From positions 1 to 64,000 of the forward strand of contig CALCCF010000032.1 in assembly GCA_937899905.1 (NCBI GenBank): DNA of 64,000 nt, in the 5' to 3' direction. The stretch comes from an uncultured Phycisphaeraceae bacterium. Lineage in GTDB: Bacteria; Planctomycetota; Phycisphaerae; Phycisphaerales; UBA1924. Both the position numbers and the translations under genes were made by a program. The notes under the pieces were generated by a model, which searched no databases, was not told where the DNA came from, and saw nothing but the letters and a program-made list of their open reading frames with translations. Of the stretch, positions 21,459-30,991 are shown piece by piece (the stretch's first letter is position 1; each line of letters opens with the position of its first letter).

Positions 21459-22178
21459 ATGCGTCAGAACGTTCTTGCTTTCATGGCGGCCGGCCTCGTG
21501 CTGCCAGGTGCGGTGACGGCCAGCGCGGACAACGAGCTTCGCGTCACGCCCGACGATCCACTGGTTGTGGAGTTCCGCGTCGATCCGGGCTCGACCATCA
21601 CGCCGGATACGTTCGTGGTCTATCTCGGCCAGGCCGAAGCATCCGAGCCCGGCACCTGCCTGCTGGTTGGGCAACTCGCGAACGATGGCGTCGGGATCGC
21701 GGTGCAAGGCTACCGGGCACCATTCTGCGATATCTTTGGCCCGATCGACCTGGACCCCGGTTCGGCGTTCGCCGATCGTGGGACGCCATACACACTGCTC
21801 GACCCCGGGCACTCCGACGTTGGCGCCCTGCGCGTCATGGCGCAGGGCACCGAGAGTGGGCTATTCGCGCTCGTTCTGTTCAGTGGCGAGCTCATCATCG
21901 ATGCAGACGACGTACGCATCGAGTGGGGCGAGGGTACGGGCCCGGACACGTACACCCTCAGCGATATGCAACCCGAGATCACCTCGGTCTACGTCGGCCA
22001 GCCGTGCTATGCAGATCTGGATCGCAGCGGTGAACTGGACGTGTTTGACTTCCTCGACTTCCAGAACGCGTTTGCCGCAGGCAGCCTTCGGGCCGACTGC
22101 GATGTCGACGGCTCGCTGGACTTCTTCGACTTCCTGTGCTTCTTGGACGCGTTCGATGCCGGTTGCGCTGATCGCTAG
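21459..22178 (+). CDS. Secreted protein with C-terminal GC-type dockerin (tandem paralog)
   Basis: Shares 'ELRVTPDDPLVVEFRVDPGSTITPDTFVVYLGQAE' with the preceding gene; tail 'CYADLDRSGELDVFDFLDFQNAFAAGSLRADCDVDGSLDFFDFLCFLDAFDAGC'. Confidence 0.82.
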   Translation: MRQNVLAFMAAGLVLPGAVTASADNELRVTPDDPLVVEFRVDPGSTITPDTFVVYLGQAEASEPGTCLLVGQLANDGVGIAVQGYRAPFCDIFGPIDLDPGSAFADRGTPYTLLDPGHSDVGALRVMAQGTESGLFALVLFSGELIIDADDVRIEWGEGTGPDTYTLSDMQPEITSVYVGQPCYADLDRSGELDVFDFLDFQNAFAAGSLRADCDVDGSLDFFDFLCFLDAFDAGCADR

Positions 22179-25100
22179 CGACGCATCGTTCGGCCGTTGC
22201 CACCGCCACCGCCATAGCCGTTGCGCCGCTTGTCTTGCACATCGACCGCAACGCCCTCGAAGAGCCGGGCCGACTGCGGGCCGAGCACGCCCTCGACGGC
22301 CGAAATGAACTCGGGCTCGAGGCTGACCTTGGCGGGGTTGGTCGACGGCACGGCGATCGGCTCGGCATCGCCGATGCACACCACGACTTCAAGGGGGGAG
22401 GACGGCGCACCCACGGGGGCGCCGTTCTTCTTTGAGGCGTCGTGCCGCTGCGCGAGCTGGTGCACCTCGTCGAGAGCACGGGGGCCGTTGCCGTTTAGGC
22501 GGCTATCACGGACGTACAACCGCAAGCGCCCACCCTCGAGCGGGACGGCCTCGATCGGCGCCAACTGCTCGACGATGATCTGCGCATCACCGCGCGATCG
22601 ATCGAGCCGGCCGAGCACGAACTTTGGCGAGTCGTCCTCGAGCAGGTGGTGGTACTTCTGGTACGCGTCGGTGAAGAGCACGGCGTCGGCGGTGCCGGTG
22701 GTGTCCTCGACGGTGAGGATGCCCATCTTCTGGCCCGCGCTGCGGCCGCTGCGCGCAACGATCACGCGCGTGCTCTGAACCATGATGCCCGCGATCACGC
22801 GGCGGCCCTGCTCCACCTCGGCCAGCTGCCCGAGCTCGTGCGTCGCGAAGGCGCGGATCCACGGGCCCCATTGCTCGAGCGGGTGGCTCGACACGTAGAA
22901 GCCCAGCGTCTCCTTCTCGTGGCGCAGCGTCTCTTGCTCGCCCCAGGGCTCGATGCTCACGAGCGCGGGCGAGGGCGCTTCCTCGGCCGCGCCACCGCCG
23001 AACAGCCCGCCCTGGCCTGCGGCGCGATCGGCGGCCGCCGTCTGCCCGGCGCTCACGGCCGGGTCGATCGACGCGACCATCGCCGCCCGGTCGTCACGGG
23101 AATGCACGTTGTCGAACGCGCCCGCCTTGATGAGGCTCTCGATGGTGGCCTTGTTGACGCTCCGCAGCGGCACGCGCTCGCAGAAGTCGAACAGGTCGCG
23201 GAAGGGCTCGGGCCCGTCTTCGCGCTGACGCGCCTTGACGATTGCCTCGATCGCGCCGCCGCCCGCGCCCTTGATGGCCTTCATGCCAAAGCGGATGTGG
23301 CCGTGCGACGCGTCGTGCGGCTCGCTCTCGCCGTACACCACCTCGAAGTCTTCACCGGACAGGTTAATGTCCGGCGGTGCAACCTCGATGCCCGTGCGCA
23401 CGACCTCGCCGGTCTTCGGATCGATCACGCGCGTGCGCTTGCAGTCTTCGAGATAGGGCAACCAATCGGCGACCTTCTGCGCCTGGCTCTCGAAGCTCAG
23501 GAACGCGGCCATGTACGGCGCTGGGAAGTATGTCTTCAGGTACGCCGTCTGATAGGCGACGATCGCGTATCCCGTACTGTGGCTCTTGTTGAAGCCGTAG
23601 CCGGCAAACTTGAGGATGAGCTCGAAGAGTTCCTCGGCCTTGTCCTTGGAGAGCCCCTGCGTCTGCGCGCCGTCGATGAACTTCGGCCGCTCGGCGTCGA
23701 TGATCTTCGCCTTCTTCTTGCTGATCGCCTTGATGAGCGAGTACGCCGCACGCAGGGGGATGCCGCCCAGCTCGTGGACGATCTGCATCACCTGTTCCTG
23801 GTACACCATCACGCCGTACGTCTCGGCGGTGAAGCGATCGACGATCTCGTGCACCTTGGGCACGGGCTCGGTGCCGTGCTTGCGCTTGTTGTACGCGGGG
23901 ATGAGGTCCATCGGCCCGGGCCGGAACAGCGCGTTGGCGGCGATGAGGTCTTCCAAGCGGTCGGGCTTCATCTCCATGAGCAAGCGACGCATGCCGCCCG
24001 ACTCGAACTGGAACACACCCGTCGAATCGCCGCGCGTGAACATGTCGAAGACGGTCGGGTCGTCGTACGTCAGGCGATCGAGATCGAGCGGGTGCGGGCC
24101 ACCGTCGGCCTTGTCGCGCCCGACGGCGGCGTACACGGCCTCGTCGTCCATCGCGTCGGTGATGAGCTTGCGGGCACGCTCGATGACGCTGAGCGTCCGC
24201 AGCCCAAGGAAGTCCATCTTGAGCAGGCCCATCTTCTCGCAGGTGGGGCCGTCCCATTGCGTGATGGCCTCGTCCTCGCCGCTGCCGCTCTGCTTGTAAA
24301 GCGGCACGAGCTCGTGCAAGGGCCGCGTCGCGACGATCACGCCCGCCGCATGCACGCTGGCGTGGCGGGCCTGGCCTTCCATCACCTTCGCGTTGGCGAT
24401 CAGCCGCTGGATCGTGTCCTTGTCGGCGTGCTGCTCGGCGGGCAGCTTCTCGTTGAGCTTCGCGAGCGCCTCGCGCTTGCCCTGCGCCGCGTCGGCGAAG
24501 TCGGGCTCCTGCTCCTCGGCCTTGTCCAGCGTGATGTTGAGCTGCTCGGGGATGAGCTTGGCCAGGCGATCGGCGACCGGCAGGCTCACCGCCAAAACAC
24601 GAGAAACATCCCGCACCGCCGCGCGCGCCTTGAGCGTCCCGAACGTGATGATCTGGGCGACGTGCCCGTACTTCTCGCGCACGTAGCGGATGACATCGCC
24701 GCGCCCGTCCTGGCACAGGTCGATATCGATATCGGGGTACTCGCTGCGATCGGGGTCGGTGAATCGCTCGAAGAGCAGGCCGTACTTCACCGGGCACGCG
24801 TTGGAGAGACCAAGCACGTACCCGACCATCGTGCCCACGCCCGAACCACGCGCGAGCGCCGGGATGCCTCGCGCACGCCCCCAGTTCACAAAGTCCCACA
24901 CGATGAGGAAGTATGCGCTGATGCTCTTGTCAGCGAGGATCTTCAGCTCGCGGTTCAGCCTCGCCCACTTGTCGAACCCATCGGTGTCCTTGGCCTTCGC
25001 GCGCGCGGCCTCGGTTTCTGGCTGTCCCTCGGCGTGCTTGTGCCTGTGGGTCATGATCTGCGGCCCGTACCGCCACACCATGCCGCCCTCGGCCAGCGAA

Positions 25101-26239
25101 CGCAGCGCGTCGTCACACTGCTCGTTCAGCTCGTCGTGGTCGAGCCCCGCGTCGGCCGCCGGCTCGAGCTCGAAGCGTGAGCAATAGTCCTTGTACCAGG
25201 CCGTGAGGTCGCCGTTGTAGCCCTTGTCCTGGCTGTCGGGCAGCTTGTCGGGCGTACGCACGACGACCACCGGCGCATGGTTCGCGCCGATCGGCAGCTC
25301 GACGTCGCACCGCGCCGCGATGCGCAGCGTGTTGTCGCACGCCTCGACGCCGACATCGCCGTACTCACCCTCGAAGAGCTCGCGCATCTGCTCGGGGCTC
25401 TTGACGTAGAGCTCGGGCGTGTAGCGCAGCCGCTCCTGATCGTGCTTGTTCTTGCCCATCGAGATGCAGATGAGCGTGTCGTGCGCGTCGTGGTCCTCAG
25501 CGCGAAGGAAGTGCGCGTCGTTGTCGCACACCAGCGGCACGTCGTGCTTCCTGGCAAGCTCGATGACGTGCGGGTTGATCGACACCTGCTCGGGGATGTG
25601 GTGCTGCAGCTCGCAGAACGAGCGCGGGCCAGTGCCCTCGTCGGCGAACACCCGCTTGTGCCACGCGATGCTCTCCTCGGCGGCCTCAAGGTCGGTCTTC
25701 GAGCCGCTGCGCACGTACCGGAGCAGGTGCTCGCCCAGCTCGCTGCCCAGGTGGCCGTTGATCGCGATGAGCCCGCTGCTGTGTTCTTCCAGCAGGTCGC
25801 GATCGATGCGCGGCTTGAAGTAGAACCCCGTCAGGTACGCCTGGCTGCACAGCAGCATCAGGTTGTTCCAGCCCGTGATGTTCTCGGCCAGCAGCACGAG
25901 GTGGTACCCGCCGTCGCTGACGCCGGTGTAGGTCCGGTCCTGCCGGGGTCGGCCGGGCGGGCAGACATACGCCTCGACGCCCAGGATCGGGCGGACGCCG
26001 CGCTTGCGGCAAGCCTCATAGAAGGCCACCGCGCCGAACATGTTGCCGTGGTCGGTGACGGCGACGGCCGGGGTGCCCAGGTCGGCGATCCGATCGGTCA
26101 GGCGGTCGATCCGGTTGCCGCCGTCCAGCAGCGAGTACTCGGTGTGCAGGTGGAGGTGGGCGAAGCCCGAGCCGAGCTGGCCGAGCAGCCGATCGGCGAC
26201 GCTCTGGCCTTCCGTGTGATCCGTCTCGGTCGCCGCCAT
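22175..26239 (-). CDS. dnaE: DNA polymerase III subunit alpha
   Basis: PHP domain 'FAHLHLHTEYSLLDG', 'YPDIDIDLCQDGRGDVIRYVREKYG', 'FVHAAGV'-type and helix-hairpin-helix regions; ~1354 aa. Confidence 0.96.
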   Translation of the reverse strand: MAATETDHTEGQSVADRLLGQLGSGFAHLHLHTEYSLLDGGNRIDRLTDRIADLGTPAVAVTDHGNMFGAVAFYEACRKRGVRPILGVEAYVCPPGRPRQDRTYTGVSDGGYHLVLLAENITGWNNLMLLCSQAYLTGFYFKPRIDRDLLEEHSSGLIAINGHLGSELGEHLLRYVRSGSKTDLEAAEESIAWHKRVFADEGTGPRSFCELQHHIPEQVSINPHVIELARKHDVPLVCDNDAHFLRAEDHDAHDTLICISMGKNKHDQERLRYTPELYVKSPEQMRELFEGEYGDVGVEACDNTLRIAARCDVELPIGANHAPVVVVRTPDKLPDSQDKGYNGDLTAWYKDYCSRFELEPAADAGLDHDELNEQCDDALRSLAEGGMVWRYGPQIMTHRHKHAEGQPETEAARAKAKDTDGFDKWARLNRELKILADKSISAYFLIVWDFVNWGRARGIPALARGSGVGTMVGYVLGLSNACPVKYGLLFERFTDPDRSEYPDIDIDLCQDGRGDVIRYVREKYGHVAQIITFGTLKARAAVRDVSRVLAVSLPVADRLAKLIPEQLNITLDKAEEQEPDFADAAQGKREALAKLNEKLPAEQHADKDTIQRLIANAKVMEGQARHASVHAAGVIVATRPLHELVPLYKQSGSGEDEAITQWDGPTCEKMGLLKMDFLGLRTLSVIERARKLITDAMDDEAVYAAVGRDKADGGPHPLDLDRLTYDDPTVFDMFTRGDSTGVFQFESGGMRRLLMEMKPDRLEDLIAANALFRPGPMDLIPAYNKRKHGTEPVPKVHEIVDRFTAETYGVMVYQEQVMQIVHELGGIPLRAAYSLIKAISKKKAKIIDAERPKFIDGAQTQGLSKDKAEELFELILKFAGYGFNKSHSTGYAIVAYQTAYLKTYFPAPYMAAFLSFESQAQKVADWLPYLEDCKRTRVIDPKTGEVVRTGIEVAPPDINLSGEDFEVVYGESEPHDASHGHIRFGMKAIKGAGGGAIEAIVKARQREDGPEPFRDLFDFCERVPLRSVNKATIESLIKAGAFDNVHSRDDRAAMVASIDPAVSAGQTAAADRAAGQGGLFGGGAAEEAPSPALVSIEPWGEQETLRHEKETLGFYVSSHPLEQWGPWIRAFATHELGQLAEVEQGRRVIAGIMVQSTRVIVARSGRSAGQKMGILTVEDTTGTADAVLFTDAYQKYHHLLEDDSPKFVLGRLDRSRGDAQIIVEQLAPIEAVPLEGGRLRLYVRDSRLNGNGPRALDEVHQLAQRHDASKKNGAPVGAPSSPLEVVVCIGDAEPIAVPSTNPAKVSLEPEFISAVEGVLGPQSARLFEGVAVDVQDKRRNGYGGGGGNGRTMRR

Positions 26240-26647
26240 GCCCGGTAATCCTCCGTGATCGTGTGAGCTCGTGACGGTAGCCGCGAGGCTTCGCGATGTA
26301 GGCCCCACGAGAGCACGCCCGATAATCTACCCAACCTCCTGTAACTCCAGATTCTGGCCTATTTGTGGACAAATCCAGGAATCCACCTGGCACCTAAACG
26401 TCGTATCCGCTAGTGTTTACTGGAGGGAGGGATGGTCTCGGTCTGATCCGCTGCCATACCTCAGAAACGACAACGGACTGCACGCACGCCTTTGGGAAGG
26501 ACCCCGAGGGGGTGTGCCAGACGCACTTTGGCCGTTTCCTGGCTTGCGTGCAGCACGGTGGAGCGGGCGTGAGTCTCCACCGGAGTTCTGTTGGCGATCG
26601 TGGGATCGAGAGAACAAAGAAGACTTGGGATCAAGGGAGAGTTAGAT

Positions 26648-27352
26648 ATGCGTACCGTCCTTACCGCAGCCGCCATGCTGGCCACAGCCGGCATCGCCGC
26701 CGCCGACACCGTCGACCTCCGGTACTTCGGGCCCGGAGCCGGCGCGTCGTTTGATGTCGTTGCCAACGGCAACTCGACCAACGTGTTCGCCGGACAGCTG
26801 AACTTCCTGGCCGACAACGGCACGGGTGCCGGCTCTCTGCTCAATGGCACGCTGATGACCTACTGCATCGACGTGCTCGAGCCCGTCGGTGGCGGCCGGA
26901 ACACCTACAACCTCGACGCCCTCGAGGACTCGCCCGTGACGGCGGGCAGCGTCTCCCCAGCCATGGGTGTGGACAAGGCCGAGGCTATCGCCCGCATGTA
27001 CACCTTCGCGGCTGGCTCGCAGTTCGGTAGCGACAGCGACGTTGCCGCTGCCTTCCAGCTGGCCGTCTGGGAAGTCATCGCCGACTTCGGTGGCGACGAT
27101 CCGATGAGCCTGACGACCGGCGACTTCCGCGTGACCAGCACCGTGAACAGCGGCACCCAGACGTTCCTGACCAGCCTGCTCGACGCGGCCGGCGACGGCA
27201 GCATCAGCATCTTCCAGGGCCTGGGCGCGCTCACCAACGAGGGCCTGCAGGACCAGATCTTCGAGGTAGTCATCCCGCTGCCCGGTGCGGCTGGCATGGC
27301 CGCCGTTGGGCTCGCCGGTGTGGGCCTCGTTGCCCGCCGCCGCCGCAGCTAA
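26648..27352 (+). CDS. Secreted protein, candidate Cys-Gln thioester domain, VPLPA/PEP-CTERM-like anchor (paralog 1)
   Basis: Signal peptide; 'TYCIDV' (Cys codon 26864-26866); 'AAFQLAVWEVIADF' (Gln codon 27056-27058); tail 'VVIPLPGAAGMAAVGLAGVGLVARRRRS'. Confidence 0.75.
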   Translation: MRTVLTAAAMLATAGIAAADTVDLRYFGPGAGASFDVVANGNSTNVFAGQLNFLADNGTGAGSLLNGTLMTYCIDVLEPVGGGRNTYNLDALEDSPVTAGSVSPAMGVDKAEAIARMYTFAAGSQFGSDSDVAAAFQLAVWEVIADFGGDDPMSLTTGDFRVTSTVNSGTQTFLTSLLDAAGDGSISIFQGLGALTNEGLQDQIFEVVIPLPGAAGMAAVGLAGVGLVARRRRS

Positions 27353-27402
27353 CCAGGCTCCCCACGGCCTTTCGGGGCCGACCGTCTCTCGATCAACACC
27401 GA

Positions 27403-27433
27403 GGCGCCCGTTCCACGAGACGGGTGCCTTTTT
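27403..27433 (+). terminator. Rho-independent terminator of paralog 1
   Basis: GGCGCCCGT-TCCACGAG-ACGGGTGCC then TTTTT. Confidence 0.8.
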
Positions 27434-27884
27434 CATGCGCTCGGCGGTCTTCCATGGCACGCGGCGCTGCCGACCGCAAAGTGCACCACCGAATCGACTT
27501 CCAGCAATCCGACTACGCCAGACTGTGAGACGTGGCCGTGCTCGATGCGGATCTGAAGCTTGCCTATTCCCACAAAAATCAAAAAATTTGCGTAATTTGC
27601 GACGTGCGCTGTTTCCCTGTCGTTGTACGGCACGTATCAGTTACCCCTAGGAGAGCGCGGCCATCGAGATCCGCTTCACACGTCGCGGTCCCGCGATGCG
27701 CCGCCGTTGAGAGAAGGAAGAGACAGAGGTTCATCCCGAGCACGTGGCGGCCCGCCTTGCATCGCGCAGGCAGTGGGCCCCATAACCGATCTTCGGATGC
27801 TCGGACACTCAATTCACTTCCGCAGGGAAGCGAGCTGTGGCGGCTCGGTGCCGTCCTGTCGCTTTCGATCGCATGAGTTAGGAG

Positions 27885-28592
27885 ATGGAGATGCGGAACA
27901 CGATCATGGCCTTGGCGATCGCAGCCGGGGCGTCCACCGCGCTCGCCGATAGCGTGCAGCTGGACTACCGCGGCCTGCACGGCCGCTCGTTCACCGTGCA
28001 AGGGCATGGTGGGACCAACGCCGGATTCATGAAGTGGGATGTCCTGGACGCGTCGCTCTCGGGCGGCAAGTTCACCAACGGCCAGCGCATCCGCACCTTC
28101 TGCATCGATCTGAGCACAACGCTCGACGATCCGGATTGGTACGAGATCAAGGGCCTCAAGGACACGGTCAACCCGCTCGACCCGGGAATGACCGACGAAG
28201 AAGCCGACGCCCTGGCCCGCATGTTCACCTATGCGGTGGCCAACGACCTGAACTTCACGTCAGGCGGTAGCGGTCGCGACAACGCCGCAACGTTCCAGAT
28301 GGCGATCTGGGAGATCCTCGCGGACTTCGGCACCGACGGCTCCAGCCTGAGCACCACCACCGGCTCGTTCGCGGTCACCGGCGGCTTCTCCGGCGACGCC
28401 ACGCTGCTGAACGACCTGTTCAACGCCGCCCAGTTTGGCAGCATCAACACCAACATCGAGCTGCACGGGCTCGACTCGGTGGCCGGCCAGGACCAGGTCT
28501 ACTTCGTCGTGGTCCCCCTGCCGTCGTCGGCGGGCCTCGCCGCCGCGGGCCTCCTGGGCCTCGCCGCCATTCGCCGCCGCCGCCACCGCTAA
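27885..28592 (+). CDS. Secreted protein, candidate Cys-Gln thioester domain, VPLPA/PEP-CTERM-like anchor (paralog 2)
   Basis: 'TFCIDL' (Cys codon 28101-28103); 'ATFQMAIWEILADF' (Gln codon 28296-28298); tail 'VVVPLPSSAGLAAAGLLGLAAIRRRRHR'. Confidence 0.75.
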   Translation: MEMRNTIMALAIAAGASTALADSVQLDYRGLHGRSFTVQGHGGTNAGFMKWDVLDASLSGGKFTNGQRIRTFCIDLSTTLDDPDWYEIKGLKDTVNPLDPGMTDEEADALARMFTYAVANDLNFTSGGSGRDNAATFQMAIWEILADFGTDGSSLSTTTGSFAVTGGFSGDATLLNDLFNAAQFGSINTNIELHGLDSVAGQDQVYFVVVPLPSSAGLAAAGLLGLAAIRRRRHR

Positions 28593-28638
28593 AACGCGCT
28601 GTGATCGGCCAATAACGACCTCCCTTCTTCTCTTTCTT

Positions 28639-28661
28639 GCCGCCTCGTGGGCGGCTTTTTT
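28639..28661 (+). terminator. Rho-independent terminator of paralog 2
   Basis: GCCGCC-TCGTG-GGCGGC followed by TTTTTT. Confidence 0.8.
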
Positions 28662-28918
28662 CGTTGGACGCGTGGCTATCGGCGGCTTGCATCAGGAGCC
28701 TGGTCCGGATACCAGAGAATCGTCATAAACCCCTGGTAAATGTGCGTTTACGTCTCGACACAACCGCCGTCCGTGGTATCCTTCACGCGGTGAGGCCGCC
28801 ACGCGGAGTGGGACACGGGGAGAGTCCCCCTTCGCTCTGGCCGAGCCGGCATGGGCCCCAAGACGCCACGACGGCGAAAAGGGTCCCGGTCCAACTGAAG
28901 ACCGAGAGGGAGAACGCC

Positions 28919-29617
28919 ATGAAGGCCAAAGTCATCGCTACAGCCGCCGTGCTCGCAACCGCCGCCGCCGCCACCGCCGACAGCGTGGAGATGCGGTTCA
29001 TCGACTCCGGCCCGAGCCGGGTCCTCACGGTCGAGGTCGACGGCGAGCAGTCCCGCTTGCGTGTCGGCCAGCTGAACCACGAGATCCTGTCGCGCTCCGG
29101 CCCGACCGCCCCGCGCGTTGGCCTGCTCACGACCTACTGCGTCGACGTGACCGAGTGGGTGACCCGCCAGAGCGAGACCTACCACGTCAGCGACCTGACC
29201 GACGCGCCGGTCGTTGCGGGTAGCGATGGCATGAGCCAAGAGGCCGCCGACGCCATCGGACGCCTCTACGCCCACGCCGACGGCCGCCAATTCGAGAGCG
29301 ACCGCAACTTCTCGGCCGCCTTCCAGCTCGCCATCTGGGAAGTCGTTGCCGACTTTGATGGCTCGACCGACGGCCTCGATGTCGACGACGGCGAGTTCCG
29401 CGCGTGGGGCCTGAACAGCGGCACCCGCAACCACCTGGTCTCGCTGCTGGACGTTGCCGGCGACGACTCGCTCCGCGTCAACCGCAGGCTCCGGGCCCTG
29501 ACCAACGACGGCGCCCAAGACCAGATCTTCGAGGTCGTCATCCCGCTGCCCACCACGGGCGCCATGGCCGCCGTCGGCCTCGCGGGCGCAGGCCTTATGG
29601 CCCGCCGGCGTCGATAA
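28919..29617 (+). CDS. Secreted protein, candidate Cys-Gln thioester domain, VPLPA/PEP-CTERM-like anchor (paralog 3)
   Basis: 'TYCVDV' (Cys codon 29138-29140); 'AAFQLAIWEVVADF' (Gln codon 29324-29326); tail 'VVIPLPTTGAMAAVGLAGAGLMARRRR'. Confidence 0.75.
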   Translation: MKAKVIATAAVLATAAAATADSVEMRFIDSGPSRVLTVEVDGEQSRLRVGQLNHEILSRSGPTAPRVGLLTTYCVDVTEWVTRQSETYHVSDLTDAPVVAGSDGMSQEAADAIGRLYAHADGRQFESDRNFSAAFQLAIWEVVADFDGSTDGLDVDDGEFRAWGLNSGTRNHLVSLLDVAGDDSLRVNRRLRALTNDGAQDQIFEVVIPLPTTGAMAAVGLAGAGLMARRRR

Positions 29618-29690: not shown

Positions 29691-29718
29691 CGCCCGCCGA
29701 CCTCGGCGGGCGTGTTTT
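29691..29718 (+). terminator. Rho-independent terminator of paralog 3
   Basis: CGCCCGCCGA-CC-TCGGCGGGCG (10-bp perfect arms) then TGTTTT. Confidence 0.75.
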
Positions 29719-29762
29719 GTCGGTCGGCGACCTACCGTTCGGTGGTGGAAACCTACACGACC

Positions 29763-30056
29763 ATGTACACGCTGGGCGGCGGATCGGCGAAGCCGCCCAG
29801 CCTGATGGATCGGATCCGCGCCGGGCTCATGCTGGCCGTGCTGATCGTCGTTGGGGCGGTCATCCTCGCGGGCATCCTGGCCGTCAGCATCGTGCTCGTG
29901 CCGTTCGTGCTCGTTGGTGCGGCCATCGGCTGGTTCATCATCCGCCGCCGCATTCGCCAGGCCATCCGCGCGATGGAAGATCCGGGCACCGCTACCACAG
30001 GCCGCGAGAACGTCCGAGTGCGCCGAACACCGAACGCCGCTGGCCCCTTCGCCTAA
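29763..30056 (+). CDS. Small membrane protein
   Basis: 'MYTLGGGSAKPPSLMDRIRAGLMLAVLIVVGAVILAGILAVSIVLVPFVLVGAAIGWFIIRRRIRQAI'. Confidence 0.6.
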   Translation: MYTLGGGSAKPPSLMDRIRAGLMLAVLIVVGAVILAGILAVSIVLVPFVLVGAAIGWFIIRRRIRQAIRAMEDPGTATTGRENVRVRRTPNAAGPFA

Positions 30057-30991
30057 TCGCCGTCGATCTCGAGCATCCGGGCGCGCACGCGCAGGGTGAC
30101 CTGGCCCACAAGCCCATCGGCGATCGGCTTGCCCTCCACGCGCGACATCGGCAGCACGCCGAAGCTCGCGTTCGTGCAGAACACCTCGTCGGCGTCGAGC
30201 ACGTCATCGATCGTGAGCCACTGCTTGCGCACCGAAAGGCCCATGCTCGCGGCCTGCTCGAGCACAGCCGCCCGCGTCACGCCCGGCAGCACCGGGCTGG
30301 GCATGACCCCGCCGGATCCCCCGATCGCGCTCTCTTCGCCGCGCGCAATCGGCGTCAGCACGGCGTCATCCTTCACCACGAAGACGTTGCTCACGCTGCC
30401 ACCGCACACGTGGTTGGTCACCGTGAACAGCAGCGCCTCGGTGCCGCCCTTACCGAGCGCATTCTGCAATTCTCGCAATCGCCACCAGTAGTCGAGCGTC
30501 TTGTGGCCCGACGTCGGATCGAACGGGTTGGCCTTCGCGTCGCCGATCACGAGCACCCCGCCCTGCTCATAGAGCGCCTGGGGATATTCGGTCGCCTGCT
30601 GCGCGAGGATCGCCACCGTCGGCGTCTGCGCGCCGGCACCAACACGCTCTGCCTCACGCCGCACGAGGTTCAGGTCGCCACCGGTCACCGTCAGCCGCAC
30701 GCGCGCCGCGTCATAGGGCGCGTCATCGAGGTGGGCCTGCGCCGTGTGCTCCACGGCCTCGGCCAGCGGGCCCGCCTTGAGTGACGACGCGAGCCCGAGC
30801 TCTTTGGCTGAGTGCACCAACCGCCCGACGTGCTCCTCGACGCGCATGACGCGGACGCCGGCCTCCGTGCGCCGCGCGGTCATCGTCTCGAACAAGCCGA
30901 CCCCGTGCATGAAGCCGGCGTCCGAGAGGGACACGCTCGCGCTCGGGTCATCGTCTCGAAGCAGCCTGCCGTTGAGGAACACCGTCGCCAT
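30053..30991 (-). CDS. Aminotransferase class IV (BCAT / aminodeoxychorismate lyase-like)
   Basis: 'VFLNGRLL...VSLSDAGFMHGVGLFETM', 'TDGMT'-type PLP fold IV organisation, 'VKDDAVLTP', 'GVTRAAVLEQA'. Confidence 0.85.
   Translation of the reverse strand: MATVFLNGRLLRDDDPSASVSLSDAGFMHGVGLFETMTARRTEAGVRVMRVEEHVGRLVHSAKELGLASSLKAGPLAEAVEHTAQAHLDDAPYDAARVRLTVTGGDLNLVRREAERVGAGAQTPTVAILAQQATEYPQALYEQGGVLVIGDAKANPFDPTSGHKTLDYWWRLRELQNALGKGGTEALLFTVTNHVCGGSVSNVFVVKDDAVLTPIARGEESAIGGSGGVMPSPVLPGVTRAAVLEQAASMGLSVRKQWLTIDDVLDADEVFCTNASFGVLPMSRVEGKPIADGLVGQVTLRVRARMLEIDGD

Follow-up and report, generated by a model that had tools for sequence, protein, structure and literature searches.

A tandem array of putative stalkless thioester-domain proteins with exosortase-type tails in a Phycisphaerales bacterium

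Three paralogous genes for single-cysteine proteins with putative export signals

The window, that is, the whole stretch of 64,000 nucleotides that was analysed, is part of contig C32 in a genome of 3.6 Mb (95% complete), which we place in the Phycisphaerales because its named relatives are MAGs of the Phycisphaerales/Phycisphaeraceae. The window contains an array of three genes whose products we describe as thioester-domain (TED) proteins. The array, its neighbouring features and the key residues of each product (first position of the codon in brackets) are as follows:

22175..26308, minus strand: divergent neighbour of gene 1, which we take to be dnaE (DNA polymerase III alpha) from sequence similarity; context, outside the proposed mechanism
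26648..27352, plus strand: gene for TED protein 1, 234 aa (ORF call); C73 (26864), helix Gln Q137 (27056), proposed bond-forming Q201 (27248)
27885..28592, plus strand: gene for TED protein 2, 235 aa (ORF call); C73 (28101), helix Gln Q138 (28296), proposed bond-forming Q202 (28488)
28639..28662, plus strand: intrinsic-terminator-like hairpin with T run, 3' of gene 2 (consensus match)
28919..29617, plus strand: gene for TED protein 3, 232 aa (ORF call); C74 (29138), helix Gln Q136 (29324), proposed bond-forming Q200 (29516)
29691..29722, plus strand: intrinsic-terminator-like hairpin, 3' of gene 3 (consensus match)
30053-30991, minus strand: aminotransferase-like gene, which forms the opposite flank of the TED locus in several related loci

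A preliminary description of this DNA had reported three same-strand genes for signal-peptide proteins, each with one Cys and with a Gln 62-65 residues further on, and the exact translations bear this out. For gene 2 an internal ATG at 27891 is an alternative start that would give 233 aa, and the N-termini of all three proteins resemble Sec signal peptides as judged by eye. Each translation contains exactly one Cys, located in TYCIDV (C73), TFCIDL (C73) and TYCVDV (C74) of proteins 1, 2 and 3, respectively, and followed after 64, 65 and 62 residues by the Gln of the segments FQLAVWEVIADF, FQMAIWEILADF and FQLAIWEVVADF, which we call the helix Gln. A third motif, QDQ[IV], lies directly ahead of the C-terminal tail and is as invariant as the Cys and helix-Gln motifs; it went unmentioned in the preliminary description, and we refer to its Gln as the late Gln. 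All three C-termini are composed of PLP, a hydrophobic segment and RRRR. The architecture is one domain per protein of 232-235 aa with the PEP-CTERM-like tail directly after the domain, and neither the stalk repeats nor the sortase anchor of the TIE protein architecture (LPXTG) was found in the three window proteins. Array members are 42-49% identical to protein 1, indicating that the proteins are true paralogs.

The intergenic gaps within the array measure 532 and 326 bp and terminator-like hairpins follow genes 2 and 3 (the region has four such consensus matches, with 2.1 expected), so that, judged by these consensus matches, the three genes look like separate transcription units.

The domains are predicted to adopt the TED fold

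The assignment of the three proteins to the Cys-Gln thioester-domain fold family, made in the preliminary description, is supported by profile scores, structure models and structural matches alike. With the TED model PF08341, which stops before the late Gln, proteins 1, 2 and 3 scored 15.7, 20.5 and 22.4 bits in the protein scan and 17.2, 22.2 and 24.2 bits in the genome search. Measured against the Pfam gathering threshold of 22 bits, the search for this model that had been suggested was positive for protein 3 in both scans and for protein 2 in the genome search, but protein 1 stayed below. As the published TED adhesin of pLS20 (PMC8092201) reaches 23.6 bits only, near-threshold PF08341 scores are normal for genuine TEDs. 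Model TIGR03934 (TQXA domain), also suggested for this purpose, did not come up: it is absent from the matches listed in the NCBIfam scans, the release of which may not include that model. The [YFL]C-hydrophobic-polar motif of TEDs is present as YCID, FCID and YCVD. Sequence searches of the PDB with a single protein or with the family profile returned no TED, a result that is uninformative because the authentic pLS20 TED found none either, and profile-profile alignment (hhalign) with nine class II TEDs aligned the Cys block alone. For protein 2, PHROGs gave a weak match to a tail protein (17.6 bits, E 0.0037), which we discounted as chance. Pfam would already label some of the proteins, so the family itself is known and what is new is its architecture and setting.

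AF2 models were obtained for mature protein 1 (pLDDT 91.8, pTM 0.85) and for the domain of protein 3 without its tail (pLDDT 96.1, pTM 0.92). The order of elements is the same in both: two very long strands precede the strand with the Cys and a fourth one, and three helices and then two short strands follow. According to these models the segments FQLAVW, FQMAIW and FQLAIW of proteins 1, 2 and 3 correspond to the second long helix, and the QDQ[IV] Gln of proteins 1 and 3 opens the last strand. When the whole PDB was searched with the two models using Foldseek, the confident matches were TEDs only, all others having probabilities of 0.05 or less: CpTIE (5a0g) was matched with a probability of 0.99 by both models, Cpa (2xic/2xid) with 0.84-0.87 and BaTIE (6fwv) with 0.96, and 2xi9 and 4bug are further Cpa entries among the matches. 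The E-values are modest (0.002-0.004) and the TM-scores are only 0.42-0.50, which, on the level of these models, corresponds to the same fold as that of TEDs in remote relatives. Two confident models, with TEDs as the only confident matches in the PDB, indicate the fold of a six-stranded barrel with a three-helix bundle.

Neither model has a helix of at least four residues between the fourth strand and helix α1, the place of α0 in class I TEDs, and the β-sandwich insert of class II is absent from both as well, about 10 residues connecting α3 to the last strand pair. Having neither insert, the modelled family looks like a bare TED core.

The late Gln is the probable partner of the Cys

In solved TEDs it is the later Gln, located on the last strand (strand Q), that forms the bond; the TQxxPhiW motif corresponds to helix α2, and its Gln and Trp form hydrogen bonds with the Cys backbone and are dispensable for the thioester (PMC4450167, PMC6194298). 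The bond-forming Gln of TEDs sits in a weak PhiQ-polar-Phi-Phi motif on that last strand. Calculated from the pairs C138-Q267, C109-Q261 and C94-Q247, the Cys-Gln spacing of class I TEDs ranges from 129 (CpTIE) to 153 (PnTIE) residues. The QDQ[IV] Gln follows the Cys after 128, 129 and 126 residues in proteins 1, 2 and 3, respectively. This spacing is ordinary, and the argument of the preliminary description that an unusually short Cys-Gln distance marks a distinct subfamily therefore fails. From the chemistry of the family we infer that a thioester is formed and that the late Gln is its partner, the putative bonds being C73-Q201, C73-Q202 and C74-Q200.

All three motifs are near-invariant among divergent relatives

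Conservation was assessed in two partly overlapping sets, with Pfam-only distant matches below cut-off left out of the counts. Most relatives are 20-45% identical to protein 1, and the Cys is usually the sole one of the mature protein. The first alignment comprises 128 deduplicated relatives from all over the Phycisphaerales and, rarely, from Proteobacteria and Verrucomicrobia, and the Cys, helix-Gln and late-Gln motifs are near-invariant in it, far beyond chance (Cys 126/128, helix Gln 125/128, late Gln 125/128). The three exceptions for the late Gln are two frame-broken pieces and one non-member, an unrelated PEP-CTERM protein, and one protein has lost the helix Gln and the Trp while keeping the Cys and the late Gln. 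Because the QDQ pattern had been used to recruit some of the relatives, and as the Pfam model ends before the late Gln, we took the 28 unique relatives recruited by this model as a fair test; the Cys, the helix Gln and the late Gln are all kept in 28/28. The second set, 74 sequences including divergent members, has the late Gln in 74/74 and the Cys in 72/74. Two of its proteins have Cys or Ala in place of the helix Gln, so that overall three relatives carry G, C or A there, each with Cys and late Gln kept, and in three 'CAQQ'/'CVQQ' proteins a normal QxxxW is found by eye one alignment column off.

The two proteins of this set that have lost the Cys, L202 and L223, keep the helix Gln and the late Gln; they may be natural dead-site variants or decayed copies. 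Gln conservation alone is thus no proof of a bond, and in view of these two relatives the late Gln may have a structural role as well. In the alignments both Gln are highly conserved, the late Gln being the only one that is never lost among the full-length relatives examined.

The family is widespread in the order and the array appears to be an old resident beside dnaE

The family profile has a match (E ≤ 1e-9) in 96/201 sampled genomes of the order, i.e. in about half, in 35/399 genomes of the phylum sample at a looser limit that includes some tail-only matches, and in 2/243 genomes of a proteobacterial class sample, one of them being the centre genome of that sample. No close relatives were found in plasmid and phage records. 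Tandem sets of 2-4 ORFs, frame-broken copies counted, occur at 12/80 related loci. Within the same genus the order of the array is kept, proteins 1, 2 and 3 being 65, 56 and 60% identical to the products of the three genes of L014, with 85-86% identity for dnaE.

TED gene 1 is divergently adjacent to dnaE at about 22 of the 80 related loci (L013, L014, L016-L019, L021-L023, L025, L027-L033, L037, L040, L046, L058 and L085). This place is unusually stable for a fast-evolving surface gene, the identity of the TED proteins dropping to about 35%, and the locus appears to be an old resident whose products evolve fast, as surface proteins do. L018 ('Leptolyngbya sp. PLA1') and L058 ('Cyanobacteria bacterium CYA') have the dnaE-TED neighbourhood together with a planctomycete-like dnaE (61-64% identity), and these two public assemblies are probably mislabelled. 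Frame-broken or stop-containing TED copies lie in or near arrays (L042 6747-7501, L044 6175-7341, G054:C8:58879-59478 and G047:C5:20527-21240), which suggests birth and death of paralogs.

The proteins carry exosortase-type tails in a genome with exosortases

The tail is PEP-CTERM-like and lies 8 residues past the late Gln. Export and a VPLPA/PEP-CTERM-like tail in a diderm, as put forward in the preliminary description, agree with the anatomy of the tails, PLP...RRRR in all three proteins as in exosortase substrates, and with three exosortase-family genes in the genome, two of which score over the TIGR02602 cut-off. With the PEP-CTERM and VPLPA-CTERM models all three window tails stay below cut-off (for protein 2 VPLPA-CTERM gives 21.0 bits, the cut-off being 25.35). 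Tails of relatives score above cut-off with VPLPA-CTERM (Rhodobaculum, Roseibacterium), PEP-CTERM (a Paucibacter) and PFE-CTERM (a Verrucomicrobiia).

A fourth, divergent TED-like protein is encoded at C25:50311-50895 on the minus strand (loci L004/L163), 7.5 kb from one of the exosortase genes. It has one Cys in its mature part and the motifs SFCLEY, IQDAFW and RQSILY, and it scores 53.7 bits with the family profile and has no Pfam recognition whatever. About 28 other PEP-CTERM-like matches of the family profile in the genome are nearly all confined to the tail. Contig C106 (21448-35202) harbours at least six PEP-CTERM-like tails in 14 kb, another array of exosortase-type surface proteins. 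Identity with the flocculation protein PepA, whose model NF033554 matched 39/91 relatives, was rejected: genuine PepA proteins have no TED blocks, so it is the tail that accounts for most of the match. On the window proteins NF033554 reaches at most about 18 bits, mostly from the tail, with a cut-off of 80 bits.

Proposed mechanism and alternatives

We propose that the array encodes minimal exported, stalkless TEDs with a thioester between the Cys and the late Gln, which are processed by an exosortase and able to bind covalently, and we regard this explanation as a whole as probable. It builds on computational results for the family, the fold, the conservation of the motifs, the anatomy of the export and sorting signals and the exosortases of the genome. 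A Sec signal peptide would direct the export of each TED protein, which would fold into the β-barrel and three-helix TED. The thioester would then form autocatalytically between the Cys of [YF]C[IV]D and the QDQ[IV] Gln on the C-terminal strand, the FQxA[IV]WE Gln only lining the active site. Once one of the exosortases had processed the tail, the reactive domain would remain, without a stalk, at the envelope or in the exopolysaccharide layer. Finally, the thioester would acylate an amine (or hydroxyl) and thereby attach the protein covalently to the matrix, to adjacent cells or to a surface. TEDs react with amines; that of SfbI binds a single lysine of fibrinogen (PMC4450167). With no stalk and with an exosortase signal 8 residues away, the domain would be better suited to action in the envelope or exopolysaccharide layer than to reaching a distant receptor, and hypothetically the attachment would involve the matrix or other cells rather than an animal host.

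A thioester between the Cys and the FQxA[IV]WE Gln, as the preliminary description had it, which would define a new short-spacing TED subfamily, is very improbable. Although this Gln is also near-invariant (125/128) and in known TEDs is found near the Cys, the equivalent Gln on α2 is dispensable for the bond in solved TEDs (PMC4450167, PMC6194298), AF2 places it on the middle helix, three relatives with Cys and late Gln have replaced it, and the usual TED spacing belongs to the late Gln. We also think it unlikely that the TED fold is present without a thioester, the protein being a structural component of the matrix or an adhesin that binds non-covalently, with packing as the reason for the conservation of Cys and Gln. 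L202 and L223, which keep the fold motifs and both Gln without the Cys, would fit such a protein, but the Cys is present in 72/74 and 126/128 very divergent sequences, in most cases with no second Cys in the mature protein, and a functionless sole Cys is rarely so conserved.

The preferred explanation, a covalently binding exported TED, contains a functional alternative, and the confidences in the two overlap: the thioester might act in cis, linking the protein with exopolysaccharide or other envelope material of the same cell instead of serving an adhesin for other cells or surfaces. We take this possibility seriously without favouring it. PEP-CTERM/exosortase systems track exopolysaccharide production (PMC1569441), another PEP-CTERM protein, PepA, shifts exopolysaccharide from soluble to cell-bound (PMC9850573), the window proteins have no stalk for outward reach, and the fourth TED is encoded close to an exosortase gene. 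On the other hand, the TED that is characterised best attaches to a lysine in a protein (PMC4450167), and PepA-family proteins are themselves not TEDs.

Implications

In the PSI-BLAST survey by which TEDs were defined, they turned up in Gram-positive bacteria exclusively (PMC4450167). In the open-licence literature we found no paper joining TEDs with PEP-CTERM anchoring, and a survey of isopeptide bonds names exosortases in its reference list only. New here are stalkless single TEDs with an exosortase-type tail 8 residues past the Gln and with neither class-defining indel. Small, stalkless TEDs with a single Cys, present in roughly half of the genomes sampled from this planctomycete order, would bring covalent adhesion chemistry to diderms, offer a testable chemical role for part of the large number of PEP-CTERM proteins that are uncharacterised, and serve as compact domains in protein-ligation work. 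Tentatively, and not as the outcome we would expect, the family might constitute a third structural TED class, placed before an exosortase signal and giving diderms, chiefly Phycisphaerales, covalent attachment to the exopolysaccharide matrix or to neighbouring cells. Were this true, PEP-CTERM matrices would in general be built with reactive thioesters, which would then be more than a Gram-positive host-binding device.

Comparison with known systems

With PEP-CTERM/VPLPA-CTERM substrates the window proteins share the PLP motif, the hydrophobic segment, the Arg-rich end and exosortases in the genome, but their tails are under the model cut-offs and the domain ahead of the tail is a TED. The likeness to PepA is limited to the tail, as proteins above the NF033554 cut-off have no Cys, helix and late-Gln blocks.

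Compared to class I TEDs (CpTIE 5A0G, SfbI, PnTIE, Cpa/Spy0125), which are the top PDB matches, the window proteins have the same [YFL]C[hydrophobic][polar] and QxxPhiW helix blocks, the same late Gln on the last strand (after 126-129 residues here and 129 in CpTIE) and the same barrel and three-helix fold. They differ in having only 12-16% identity to them, Phe in place of the Thr of TQxxPhiW, no obvious α0, no stalk, and an exosortase-type tail instead of LPXTG. Whereas the roughly 75-residue β-sandwich insertion of class II TEDs (BaTIE 6FWV, SaTIE, pLS20 p34) is missing in the window proteins, they have in common with that class the head fold (6fwv, probability 0.96), the lack of α0, the FC[IV][DE] block and the late Gln.
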